Positions 1,445 to 51,300 of a stretch of 64,000 bases of DNA are shown here, one piece after another. Position 1 is the first letter of the stretch. The number at the start of each line of letters is the position of its first letter. The translations under genes were made by a program, and so were the position numbers. A model generated the notes under the pieces. It had not been told where the DNA came from. It was given only the letters and a program-made list of their open reading frames with translations, and made no database searches. The stretch lies in contig JAOTOL010001625.1 in NCBI GenBank assembly GCA_034440575.1, forward strand, positions 1,694,501 through 1,758,500. The letters run 5' to 3'. Origin of the DNA: Imbricaverruca yamaguchii (taxonomy: Eukaryota; Arthropoda; Thecostraca; Neoverrucidae).

Positions 1445-4400
1445 CTGCCGCGAGGTCAGCCGAGGTCACGCCGCTGACCGGTGGCACCTCGAACGTGCAC
1501 AACACGGAGCGTCACCACAAGTAGTCGTGACACCGTCACAATGACACCCATTAGCCGTGCTCGCACAGAGATCGTGACGGAGGACTGTCGGCCAACCTGA
1601 CGCCACGGCACGCCACACGCCACACGCAACTGGGACGGAACAGTTCCCATACGTGGCTAGAACGGGCACGGTTTCGATACGTAACTGAAAAGGGAACAGG
1701 TGCGCTAGTTAGTTATTAGGGCTTTAGGGCGCATCGACTACATTGGTCATGCAGCGCCCAGGGAACAGGTGCGATTCGCAACTGGAGCGAGAACCGTTCC
1801 CATACGTAACTGGCACGGGCACGGCTCCGATGCAGAACTGAAACGGGCACAGTTCAGACACGCAATCGTAACGTGAACAGTTTCGATACGCGACTGCAAA
1901 CGAAAACGGAAACTGGAAATGCATCAAAATTTGCGCATCTCGCTCATTTTCACCTGCGACTGGCATACCGATACCGACACCGAGTGCAGGTCGCATATCG
2001 ACAATCGACACGAAGCCAATCGCCCCGCCGTCACCAGCCGAGCTACAGCGGCGACGGGACCTGCGCGAGACGGCACGAGGCGGCACCCACCTTGGAGCCG
2101 TCCTTGATGTTGAACACCCTGATGACGGTGCCCTTCTCGGAGGCGGTGGCCACCTGCGTGCCGCTGCTGCTGAAAGCCACCGCCGCCACCGGCGAGTCGT
2201 GCGCCGGCAGCATCGTCTTGGCTTGCTGCAACGGCCGTCACTGTCAGCGGCGCGGTCAGGTGTCCCAGGTGGGAGGGCCGTCACGGCCAGGAGCGGAGTC
2301 AGGCATCACTTGGGTGGGGTGGAGGACATCACTGGCAGGGGCGAGGTCAGGTATCCGCTCAATCACACAGGTGGTAGCTGAACATGAAGGGGGGTTGAGG
2401 GGATGTAAGCAAGATGAATTCACCAGCCTCTTTCCAAAACAAGAACGCCACTGCCCCATGATGATCGTCCAGTGCACAAACGCGGGACAGATTCAACAGC
2501 ACACACTCAGACGCGGGCCACGTTTCAGCCCGATTCCACCCCGGCCGCACGGCTTCACACGGCAGCGCAGCACACCCTGGCCGTCCGGCGGCGTACCAGG
2601 TTGAGCGCGTCGAACACCTGCAGCTCGCCGATGCTGGCGCTGCCCGGGTAGGCCAGGTAGCAGAAGTCGCTGCTGGTGCTGAGCGCGCACACGCCGCGCG
2701 GGTTGGCCGGCGTGTCGCGGATGGTGTGGATCAGCTTCATGTCGCGGATGTTGTGGATGTAGAGCGACTCCTCCAGACAAACGACCAGCCGCTGTCGGGT
2801 AACACGGCGTCAGTTTGATTGATTATTTTGGCTTAAGGGCGCGCAGACTGCGAGGTCATTTAGCGCTCCAGACACACGACGGCGTCAAGACGAGAGAGCG
2901 CGAGAGAGAGAGGCTCCTCCAGACACACGACCAGCCGCTGTCGGGGCAACACGGCATCAGGGCAAGAGACACACCACCAGCCGCTGTCGAGGTAACACGG
3001 CGTCAGGGCGACAGACACACGATCAGCCGCTGTCGGGCAACACGGCGCCAGGGCGACAGACACATCACCAGCCGCTGTCGGAGTAACACTAAACAGAGCG
3101 ACAGGGACAACCAGCCGCTGTCGGGGTAACACGGCGTCAGGGCGAGAGAGCGAGCGAGAGAGGCTCCTCCAAACACACCACCAGCCGCTGTCGGGGTAAC
3201 ACGGCGTCAGGGCGACAGACACACGACCGGCCTCTGTCGGGGTAACACGGCGCCAGGGCGAGCACACCACCAGCCGCTGTCGAGGTAACACGGCGTCAGG
3301 GCGACAGACACACGACCTGCCGCTGTCGGGGTAACACAGCGTAACACGGCGTAACACGGCGGCCCCTACCGCCAGTCGCCACTCACGGCGCGGTTGAGTC
3401 GAACGGCGACGATGGTGTTGGTGTAGTCGTACTCGCACACCTTGGTGCCCTTCTTGAAGTGGCACACCTGCAGCCGGCGCGGCAGCGACTGCGTCACCAG
3501 CGTCACCAGACTGCTGCTGAAGAGCCGCTCCACCAGCAGCACGTCGCCGATCTCTGCAACATCAGCAGAAGGTTATGACAGCTTTACGACCAGCATGTGG
3601 CCGATCTCTGCAACAGCATCAGCATGTCATAGCAGCTTTATGATCAGCACGTCACCCATCTCTGCAACATCAGCAGAAGGTTATGACAGTCCTACTATCA
3701 GCACGTCGCCGATCTCTGCAACATCAGCAGAAGGTTATATCACCTTTACGATGAGCACGTCACCGATCTCTGTTTAACCGCACAAGCAGGTCATGGCAGC
3801 TTCACGATCAGCACGTCAGCGATCTCTGCAACACCACCAGCTGTGCTACGAGACCATAGGACCACGGCCACAGATCAGCTCGCGACACGCCGCCTGCAGT
3901 CGATGTGTTGCATCTGCGACGCTCGGCGAGGACGGCAGTCTGAGCAACACCCCTTGCATGAACAACGCGCGACACACATTCAGAGTAGACACACCGGGGT
4001 TGGTAAAATTCTGACCACTTGGCTAGTTGACTACCGACAAAAAGCTAGTTTGTACCATGCCAGTGGTATTAATCGGTGCAAACTATTTGCCGGTGAAGAC
4101 TTGACTCCACAACAGACCACGATGGGCTCATATCCCCAGGAGTCGGAGAATCCCCGGATCCAGTCACAAACCTGTCATGGTCTCACGCAGAAAGCTGATG
4201 TGACGACGACAGTCTTGCCATGCCCCCGATATCAACCAACTTATGCCAGCATCTTTCCAACCCCGAAACAAACCAACAAGCACGTGGAACACGGGCTGAT
4301 GGTCGACCTCGGGTCGCCTCGCGAGCGCGTGCCGACACAACTGCCGCGGAGTGCAGCTCGACACCGGGAGCGGAGGTATGTGTGCTCATCCGGTCGTGGC

Positions 4401-48300: not shown

Positions 48301-51300
48301 AGGTGCGGGACGCCCTGACCTGACCTGACCTGACCTGACCTGACCTCGACAGTGCACTACGAGGGCCTGCAGGACCAGCTGGCGCAGGTGCGGGACGCCC
48401 TGACCTGACCTGACCTGACCTGACCTGACCTGACCTCGACAGTGCACTACGAGGGCCTGCAGGACCAGCTGGCGCAGGTGCGGGACGCCCTGACCTGACC
48501 CGACCTGACCTGACCTGACCTCGACAGTGCACTACGAGGGCCTGCAGGACCAGCTGGCGCAGGTGCGGGACGCCCTGACCTGACCCGACCTGACCTGACC
48601 TGACCTCGACAGTGCACTACGAGGGCCTGCAGGACCAGCTGGCGCAGGTGCGGGACGCCCTGACCTGACCCGACCTGACCTGATCTGACCTGACCTCGAC
48701 AGTTCACTACGAGGGCCTGCAGGACCAGCTGACGCAAGTGCGGGACACCCTAACCCGACCTGACCCGACCGGACCTGACCTGACCTCGACAGTCCACTAC
48801 GAGGGCATGCAGGACCAGCTGGCGCAGGTGCGGGACGCCCCGACCCGACCCGACCTAACCTGACCTGACCTCGACAGTTCACTACGATGGCCTGCAGGAC
48901 CAGCTGGCGCAGGTGCGGGACGCCCTGACCTGACCCGACCTGACCTGATCTGACCTGACCTCGACAGTGCACTACGAGGGCCTGCAGGACCAGCTGGCAC
49001 AGGTGCGGGACGACCTGACCTGATCTGACCTGACCTCGACAGTGCACTACGAGGGCCTGCAGGACCAGCTGGCACAGGTGCGGGACGCCCTGACCTGACC
49101 CGACCTGACCTGACCTGACCTCGACAGTGCACTACGAGGGCCTGCAGGACCAGCTGGCGCAGGTGCGGGACGCCCTGACCTGACCTGACCTCGACAGTGC
49201 ACTACGAGGGCCTGCAGGACCAGCTGGCGCAGGTGCGGGACGCCCTGACCTGACCTGACCTGACCTGACCTGACCTCGACAGTGCACTACGAGGGCCTGC
49301 AGGACCAGCTGGCGCAGGTGCGGGACGCCCTGACCTGACCTGACCTGACCTGACCTGACCTCGACAGTTCACTACGAAGGCCTGCAGGACCAGCTGGCGC
49401 AGGTGCGGGACGCCCTGACCTGACCCGACCCGACCTGACCTGACCTCGACAGTGCACTATGAGGGCCTGCAGGACCAGCTGGCGCAGGTGCGGGACGCCC
49501 TAACCTGACCCGACCTGACCTGACCTGACCTGACCTGACCTCGACAGGCACTACGAGGGCCTGCGGACCGCTGGCGCGGGGGCTGACCTGACCTGACCTC
49601 GACAGTGCACTACGAAGGCCTGCAGGACCAGCTGGCGCAGGTGCGGGACGCCCTAACCTGACCCGACCTGACCTGACCTGACCTGACCTGACCTCGACAG
49701 TGCACTACGAGGGCCTGCAGGACCAGCTGGCGCAGGTGCGGGACGCCGCCTGACCTGACCTCGAAGTGACTACGAGGGCCGGGACCGCTGGCGCGGGGGA
49801 CTGTGACCTGACCTGACCTCGACAGTTCACTACGAAGGCCTGCAGGACCAGCTGGCGCAGGTGCGGGACGCTCGCGCCGCGCTGGACGCGCTCCGTGATG
49901 AGTACCGCGAGCGACTGCGGCGCGAGGCCGAGGAGGCCCAGCGACACCGCCAGATCCAGATGATGCAGAAGCTGGAGATCATGCGCAAGAAGAAGCAGGA
50001 GTACCTGCAGGTGAGCGGCGCCGGAGGCGGTGTTGTCCGGCGGCCCGGTCTGTCGCAGGGGGTCTGACCGAGCCGTGGTGGTCGGCTGATGGTGGTGGCG
50101 GCCGGCCGCACCCAGCGACAGTGACGCAGCACGTTATGGTCAGACTTCAGGCCGAGGGCATGGGATCACCCTTGTCAGCAGCTGCATGCAACCCGGCCTG
50201 AGTCCTTGGTTGGGTCCGTGGCGGTGCCTGTCCGAGCCATGATCATAGCTTGAACGTTTTGATTTCATACATTTCTGAGCATTAAACTCGCAGGAAGTGG
50301 TACGGACGATGCAGGAGCGGGAGCTGGAGGTTATCTCCGCATCCTCCTGAATCTCCGTGTCCCGGCTGACCCATGCTCCGCTGACCCACAGTACCAGCGG
50401 CAGCTGGCGCTACAGCGGATGCAGGAGCAGGAGCGGGAGATGGCGCGCCGTCACGAGCAGCAGTACCAGTGGCAGCAGCCCAGCTACCAGCCGGCGGCCG
50501 GCGCGCCCTGGTCCGCACAGCAGGCCGTGCCAGGTCAGTGGGGTCACGTCAGGTCACGCCACTCAGGTCTGGGCAGTACGGTAGGGTAGGTCATGTGTGC
50601 CCGGTCAGGTCAGCGTGAGTGAAATTCAGGCCTTGGTATTTGGGGCAGATGAAGTCAGCTGAAGTCAGGTCAGACCATCATATCAGACAGATGGCTCTAG
50701 GTTAGATCAGTTCGGCTATGGCTATGCCAGTGAAATGAGGTCAGATTAAGAAGTCGGGCTTTAATTTAGGTGGATTGAGAGGGTGTGAATTAAGATCAAA
50801 GAAGATCATCCTTGAAGTATGCGCGATCAAGGTGTGCTCGTGATTGGTGGCTATTCAGGTCTGCTGCGTGGGACGGTTGGTGGGGTTGGCCCGCTGAACG
50901 GGCCTGGATTGTATTAGGTTTCGGTGAAACTGGCGGTGCAGCACGGCCAATTCAGACTTATTCGCCGAGGTCGGGTTGGTGACCTCGGGTCAGGTTAGTT
51001 CAGTGGTGGGCCAGGTCACGTAGCCCGCCCACTGGCAGCCAGGCCCCCTGACGGGTACCACCCACCCTCTGCGGCAGGCTATGGTCCGCCTCCTGAAGGC
51101 TTCGACCCCCTGGCAGCCAGGCCCCCTGACGGGTACCACCCACCCTCTGCGGCAGGCTATGGTCCGCCTCCTGAAGGCTTCGACCCCCTGGCAGCCAGGC
51201 CCCGGTCCACCCACCCTCTGCGGCAGGCTATGGTCCGCCTCCTGAAGCCCCCTGGCAGCCAGGCCCCCTGACGGAGTACCACCCACCCTCTGCGGCAGGC

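Follow-up and report, generated by a model that had tools for sequence, protein, structure and literature searches.

Why should introns of conserved genes consist largely of tandem copies of their own splice junctions? The question is raised by a 64-kb stretch of genomic DNA (the window), which carries a head-to-head pair of genes, WIPI2 (from 11483 down to 1302) and HGS/Hrs, and in which arrays next to exons have a repeat unit that takes in the exon-intron border. Among the 39 junctions of the two genes in the window (20 donors, 19 acceptors), we found 11 that are duplicated tandemly in their own intron, at donors (5/20) as well as acceptors (6/19), taking the union of Tandem Repeats Finder (TRF), an ungapped scan and gapped alignment. 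These arrays are probably mirages, a structure reported from amphioxus: minisatellites that straddle junctions and would be tolerated since the decoy splice sites in their copies fall within the intron. At exon edges they are modestly over-represented.

Splice junctions inside tandem arrays

TRF, run with a period of at least 20 and merged, delineated 41 arrays in the window; those at junctions are listed in Table 1. A preliminary description had named nine duplicated junctions, namely the WIPI2 exon 3 and 4 acceptors, the HGS exon 5, 10 and 11 donors and the HGS exon 6, 10, 12 and 14 acceptors, and TRF and alignments confirmed all of them. The copies at these nine junctions were read by cyclic alignment in junction register; they contain exon and intron sequence on either side of the splice site, and the authentic site is the exon-facing copy. 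A second, ungapped scan compared every junction with its own intron, at a score threshold of 9 that was picked after the initial scan and then kept for the genome sample described below. The HGS exon 2 and exon 4 donor duplications are additions of the present analysis, the latter missed by TRF and caught by the ungapped scan. The HGS exon 10 acceptor, with its indels, was missed by the ungapped scan and caught by TRF and gapped alignment. The HGS exon 7 acceptor does sit at the edge of an array, as had been described. Additionally, a ~60-bp two-copy intronic duplication ends at the WIPI2 exon 2 acceptor (8879-8961) and includes at most a few exon bases; it was seen in the initial scan only and is not counted here.

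The gene models behind these junctions are anchored by protein similarity. Over query residues 16-267 the WIPI2 translation matches solved WIPI2 chains at E 1e-113, and the Hrs translation matches chains solved for VHS-FYVE and for the helical domain (E 4e-85, 4e-76 and 3e-28), in each case unbroken within the matched stretches. HGS exons 7-10 and 13-15, and hence the exon 10 and exon 14 junctions, were placed by splice consensus and reading phase alone.

Units at duplicated junctions measure 34-85 bp, with a 95-bp variant at HGS exon 12. They had been described as unrelated between sites, and units of different junctions gave no matches when compared with each other. With array limits set by hand, copies of the intron's own junctions account for ~81% of HGS intron 5, ~84% of HGS intron 11 and ~76% of the intron separating WIPI2 exons 3 and 4. 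The exon portions of the units encode residues conserved in solved Hrs chains: the nine exon bases in the HGS exon 6 unit are the His-His-Cys of the FYVE motif RKHHCRACG, and YEGLQD is encoded at exon 12, where 46 exon bases are in register with the array unit. The arrays were therefore copied from the exons, not the exons from the arrays.

Table 1. Genes and junction-associated arrays in the window
Feature	Coordinates	Strand	Unit and junction	Evidence
WIPI2 gene, exons 1-6	1302..11483	-	continues beyond the window	solved WIPI2 chains, Pfam PROPPIN
HGS/Hrs gene, 15 exons	12328..56370	+		solved Hrs chains, Pfam VHS, FYVE, Hrs_helical
WIPI2 exon 4 acceptor mirage	2792..3342	-	46 bp, 10 copies plus the authentic one, interrupted; junction 2791/2792	cyclic and gapped alignment
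WIPI2 exon 3 acceptor mirage	3537..3840	-	54 bp x 5.6; junction 3553/3554; 17 exon bases	TRF, cyclic alignment
HGS exon 2 donor mirage	26043..26162	+	64 bp x 1.9; junction 26085/26086; GT lost in second copy	TRF, junction scans
HGS exon 4 donor, diverged two-copy duplication	30470..30560 (approximate ends)	+	~41 bp; junction 30481/30482; copy without GT	ungapped scan
HGS exon 5 donor mirage, first block	31393..31507	+	36 bp x 3; junction 31419/31420	cyclic alignment
Insert splitting HGS exon 5 donor array	31508..31986	+	last 60 bases (31927-31986) are part of an interspersed repeat	genome repeat search
HGS exon 5 donor mirage, second block, diverged	31987..32642	+	36 bp x 18	cyclic and gapped alignment
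HGS exon 6 acceptor mirage	32675..34111	+	51 bp x 28.8, 301-bp higher-order repeats; junction 34102/34103	cyclic alignment
Intronic array before HGS exon 7 acceptor, not spanning	35568..36956	+	stops 4 nt short of junction 36960/36961	TRF
HGS exon 10 acceptor mirage	43800..44132	+	66 bp x 5; junction 44125/44126; indels in exon part	TRF, gapped alignment
HGS exon 10 donor mirage	44283..44378	+	34 bp x 2.8; junction 44302/44303	cyclic alignment, ungapped scan
HGS exon 11 donor mirage	46910..47579	+	34 bp x 20; junction 46929/46930	cyclic alignment
HGS exon 12 acceptor mirage	48042..49871	+	85 bp (70-95, nested 5-bp repeat), ~20 copies; junction 49825/49826	cyclic alignment, ungapped scan
HGS exon 14 acceptor mirage	51028..51329	+	78 bp x 4; junction 51298/51299	cyclic alignment

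Decoy splice sites and their tolerance

The preliminary description expected such introns to fill the pre-mRNA with decoy sites, and the sequence bears this out. The splice dinucleotide AG/GT is retained in 106 of the 113 decoy copies that cover it, and 41 decoys match the authentic site exactly, across nine bases at donors or seventeen at acceptors. For site quality we used these identical-site counts only, because a junction weight matrix was overfitted for acceptors, where the 13 training sites were also the ones scored. At the HGS exon 11 donor, GT is kept in 19/19 decoys and 11 sites match the real donor across nine bases, so that, provided the exon-facing site is used, the choice must depend on more than site strength. 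Arrays of this kind recur in unrelated genes and are a natural test of how the splicing machinery distinguishes a real splice site from identical copies nearby. Most decoys, if used, would break the protein, since only seven of 105 pattern-matched decoys give an in-frame, stop-free extension (the exon 4 row, matching any GT, and three authentic donors were left out). Decoys are therefore tolerated rather than purged. In-frame exonisation was considered as a cause of the arrays and rejected, as so few decoys qualify.

A selected function, with clusters of decoys acting in splicing regulation or as a source of coding repeats, could also account for the retained dinucleotides. One HGS exon 14 decoy would extend the exon by 72 nt upstream, in frame and without a stop, and variable boundary repeats in human segmental duplications reportedly give rise to novel introns and alternative transcripts (PMC2812944). 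Mismatches are indeed rarer at the AG/GT bases of decoys (9/226, 4.0%) than elsewhere (450/5,734, 7.8%). However, this difference is weak (Fisher P 0.03, with non-independent copies), and the scarcity of in-frame decoys also argues against such a function; we consider selection for such a role very unlikely.

In the reading that we prefer, non-coding DNA of the genes in this genome would give rise to minisatellites throughout. A unit wholly within an exon would alter the protein and mostly be purged. A unit straddling a junction could multiply on the intron side with no change to the mRNA, because the copy facing the exon body is left unaltered, with the decoys on its far side. The splicing machinery would most likely pick the exon-facing copy by exon definition, through the nearest opposite splice site and exon-body signals, and the decoys would remain unused. 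The arrays may grow, shrink and homogenise via slippage or unequal exchange, lengthening the introns as they do so.

The preliminary description knew of no system of this kind. The same structure has been reported in amphioxus under the name of mirages (PMC3087553, PMC3902484). Mirages are minisatellite-like duplications of intron-exon boundaries in the globins BflGb6 and BflGb9, with earlier cases in Adh3 (PMC3087553), to which PGBD5 was added and for which troponin C is cited (PMC3902484). They occur at donors and acceptors, have AG/GT in many but not all copies and units of 10-160 bp, undergo minisatellite-type turnover and keep the authentic site (PMC3087553, PMC3902484); in the globins, reverse-transcription PCR led splicing to be judged regular, and haplotypes differ in length (PMC3087553). 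As described there, the arrays of the window have units that span the exon-intron boundary (11/39 junctions), affect both intron ends, keep AG/GT in 106/113 decoys and have units whose lengths, including the 95-bp variant, fall within the amphioxus range. In contrast to those cases, some introns here consist mainly of junction copies. The amphioxus reports treat single genes with reverse-transcription PCR and allele data, whereas the present arrays are known from genome sequence and were counted against a control at 11/39 junctions in the window and 21/126 in the sample described below.

Three further systems offer partial likenesses. In human segmental duplications, primate-specific paralogs have exon-intron boundaries that contain variable internal tandem repeats, and these have been tied to novel introns and alternative transcripts (PMC2812944). 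There, expanding boundary minisatellites make exons or introns longer and can switch on cryptic splice sites; here, in contrast, long-standing introns of conserved genes are concerned, and the evidence is DNA only. Introns have also been gained by tandem duplication of coding sequence containing a proto-splice site (PMC2891723). There, too, tandem duplication of splice signals alters gene structure, whereas here existing junctions multiply and existing introns lengthen. Ordinary minisatellites, or variable number tandem repeats, share the unit size, the higher-order repeats and the copy-number difference between gene copies, but in the present arrays the unit takes in part of an exon and its splice site, so coding constraint holds one end. 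Among the literature matches listed, which comprised titles and abstract openings with subscription journals thinly covered, boundary-spanning minisatellites appeared in amphioxus and human segmental duplications only, with none in arthropods. The structure is thus a known one, and its frequency and the control were not met in print within the literature so surveyed. The mirages found in print are single-gene lancelet reports; in this genome, perhaps from a different phylum, they are common and are counted against controls.

The published proto-splice-site duplication also bears on a mechanism proposed in the preliminary description, slippage at AG/GT microhomologies, in which duplication breakpoints would lie in AG/GT motifs at the junction. 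Every unit contains AG or GT, as it must by definition. However, the junction lies anywhere inside the unit rather than at its border (exon share 0.18-0.75, with three of the ten overhangs set by eye; Kolmogorov-Smirnov test for departure from uniform, P 0.31), and no sequence is common to the units. This explanation is accordingly one that we regard as unlikely.

Frequency of junction arrays in the window and the genome

Are arrays concentrated at junctions, as the preliminary description held? Three null models (position, unit seed and array within 300 nt) disagree on this, and the window was picked for its extreme look, so its P values are not blind. An ungapped junction-spanning copy occurs in the own intron of 10/39 junctions, compared with 1/741 junction/other-intron pairs at equal score. 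By position, 10-11 of the 39 junctions (8/39 by TRF alone) fall inside arrays, which occupy 19% of the gene region, and this is not significant (P 0.19-0.10); coverage is flat outward from the junction at 0.25-0.30. The second model collapses each array to one randomly placed seed. It is the fairer one, because array growth adds intron DNA while the junction exists once, and it assumes present intron lengths. The third considers arrays within 300 nt of a junction, where 10 of 16 span it and 2.2 are expected.

We then sampled the same genome (767,457,503 bases, 1,430 contigs) at exons chosen without regard to arrays. The sample consists of conserved motor-domain exons, not random genes: 53 of 72 Myosin_head matches were taken with their flanks (139 kb) and 42 of 126 Kinesin matches were used (88 kb). 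A junction was defined as the best AG/GT site (score at least 5) near the end of the Pfam match, which resolved 65/104 myosin and 61/84 kinesin exon ends. A looser first pass with up to three candidate sites per exon end had given 21/91 own-intron against 28/1,365 control copies; many of its sites were weak, and the best-site rule was adopted. Under that rule, spanning copies in the own intron were found at 9/65 myosin junctions (11/1,930 mismatched pairs) and 12/61 kinesin junctions (13/1,508), or 21/126 pooled against 24/3,438. Two of the 21 resemble duplicated exons (C1272:99511, at a distance of 1,337 nt; C1274:878707, at 564 nt), and four belong to a pair of near-identical gene copies on contig C1362. 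The same structure therefore recurs in unrelated genes, in agreement with the recurrent process that had been proposed.

Random non-exonic points in these loci have such copies as often as junctions or oftener (338/1,459 in myosin, 162/913 in kinesin; 500/2,372 together, 18-23%), and arrays cover 15-19% of gene DNA. In the myosin loci, array coverage is flat from the junction (0.18-0.24), and only one of 85 arrays lies wholly inside the exon matches, which amount to 12.9 kb. By unit, 6/85 myosin arrays span a junction where 2.1 are expected (P 0.017); depending on the period chosen, the expectation ranges over 1.4-2.3 and P over 0.003-0.025. When the nearest array within 300 nt of each junction is taken and one C1362 copy is omitted, 11/41 span (5.6 expected, P 0.015), to which kinesin contributes 6/18 (2.3 expected, P 0.02, weak) and myosin 5/23 (3.2 expected, P 0.21, not significant); 9 of the 30 that do not span start within 25 nt of the junction. 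The claim of junction-centring thus fails by position, for 21/126 junctions stand beside 500/2,372 random points, and holds under the seed model, at ~3-4-fold pooled and weakly in myosin alone. The same division is seen in both window and sample, and a concentration at junctions is possible.

A plain coverage effect of tolerated minisatellites fits the by-position counts and is insufficient under the seed model. Several results weigh against that neutral picture standing alone. Ten of the 28 non-coding arrays in the window span a junction where the seed model expects 1.0-1.7 (P 1e-6 to 1e-8), as do 10/50 kinesin arrays where 1.6 are expected (P 4e-6, with both C1362 copies included). In the pooled sample, arrays cover 18.8% of the first 50 bases of introns, compared with 5.5 +- 1.9% when seeds are placed at random (~3.4-fold, reached in 0/300 simulations), and this excess fades by 400-800 nt. 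The slightly better conservation of decoy AG/GT bases is also unexpected, as harmful decoys should be lost. Finally, use of the exon-facing site is a prediction drawn from protein conservation and reading phase.

These excesses could reflect a junction-linked mutational process, in which exon edges, through R-loops, stalled polymerase or spliceosome-linked breaks, or GC-rich exon ends, seed tandem duplication oftener. The per-unit excess in the window, weak in myosin and strong in kinesin, is consistent with it, as are the proportion of nearest arrays that span or closely approach a junction and the near-exon coverage. However, myosin alone is not significant in the 300-nt test, coverage is flat from the junction while random intronic points are duplicated equally often, and the junction has no fixed place in units that share no sequence. 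Local GC does not discriminate either (0.61 at duplicated junctions, 0.63 at others). Moreover, the excess hinges on collapsing arrays to one random seed, and choosing the nearest array favours small distances. We regard such a process as possible but doubtful. Under it, exon edges would be a hot spot for the birth of tandem duplications at 3-4 times background, junction copying would direct intron growth and perhaps gain, and the spliceosome would ignore dozens of identical sites, a picture to which we attach a minor share of belief. There are three candidate causes of the near-exon excess: intron ends that are older and less diluted by transposable elements, shorter ancestral introns, and mutationally hot exon edges, the last being a tentative candidate. 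Our guess is that the first two, rather than a junction-specific mutator, account for it.

Contig C1362 offers a view of array turnover. Its two kinesin gene copies (~848-852 kb and 1418-1423 kb, ~570 kb apart) are 91-94% identical in their two longest alignments and have in common a 74-bp acceptor array (10.7 and 9.7 copies) and a 57-bp donor array (8.3 and 10.0 copies), which flank one exon on both sides. The shared units suggest that the arrays may predate the gene duplication, outlasting it while copy number shifts. In the window, the 301-bp higher-order blocks at HGS exon 6 and the insert-split exon 5 array likewise suggest age and turnover; of 1,090 candidates, 40 were scored, and 39 of them are further matches to the interspersed repeat that ends this insert. 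Long arrays are difficult to assemble and the copy numbers rest on the assembly, so stuttered or mis-joined repeats have to be considered. An assembly artefact is nevertheless extremely unlikely, since copies carry many private differences and form ordered higher-order blocks, and the same structures occur in unrelated genes as well as in a pair of diverged gene copies.

Should the sampled rate apply across the genome, it would contain very many natural experiments on how the spliceosome chooses among identical sites tens of bases apart, as well as a concrete route of intron lengthening. It would also call for caution in gene prediction and short-read mapping in such genomes.

Composition and other features of the window

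The Hrs VHS-FYVE region is 56% identical to a chain that we take to be human and 53% to one presumably from fly, and it shows the fly-like residues EPDW and ADG-VCHRCR. The GC content of the window is 50.9%; that of amphioxus is ~41%. From these values the animal is probably something other than an amphioxus, and its fly-like residues hint that it may be an arthropod. AT-rich stretches at 8001-20000 and 22001-26000 (35-46% GC per 2 kb) surround the divergent promoter and first introns, most of the rest having 48-67%, and they contain only 2 of the 41 window arrays.

HGS exon 15 (55471-56370) has a frame break near 55550, between the exon start and the frame ending LISFE, which may be a sequencing slip, a variant or a small intron. 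The exon also contains 21-bp repeats (55782-55961 and 56124-56304), so arrays arise in coding sequence too where the frame permits. In intron 12, 40 bases at 50289-50330 resemble HGS exon 13 and are possibly a decayed exon copy.

Two non-LTR (lacking long terminal repeats) retrotransposons with RVT_1 and endonuclease domains lie in the window. One (12845-16608, minus strand) is adjoined by a GDSL-lipase open reading frame. The other (40360-43571, plus strand) lies in HGS intron 9 and adjoins the exon 10 acceptor array, a fragment of whose unit follows its tail. Heads of a tRNA-like short interspersed element (SINE) occur at 5411, 25782, 52678, 58163 and 58495 with the common plus-strand sequence TCTCACAATCGAAAG, and a further copy, apparently reversed, lies near 23060. 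ARAGORN called no tRNA genes in the window, and the SINE fragment had no match when scanned against viral contigs.

Two observations concern the myosin sample. On contig C1272 (95309-99684), a myosin gene has three copies of the exon for Pfam positions 376-439, which are probably mutually exclusive exons. On contig C1177 (278919-280796), a Myosin head match of 644 positions lies in one open frame, probably that of an intron-poor or retrocopied myosin.

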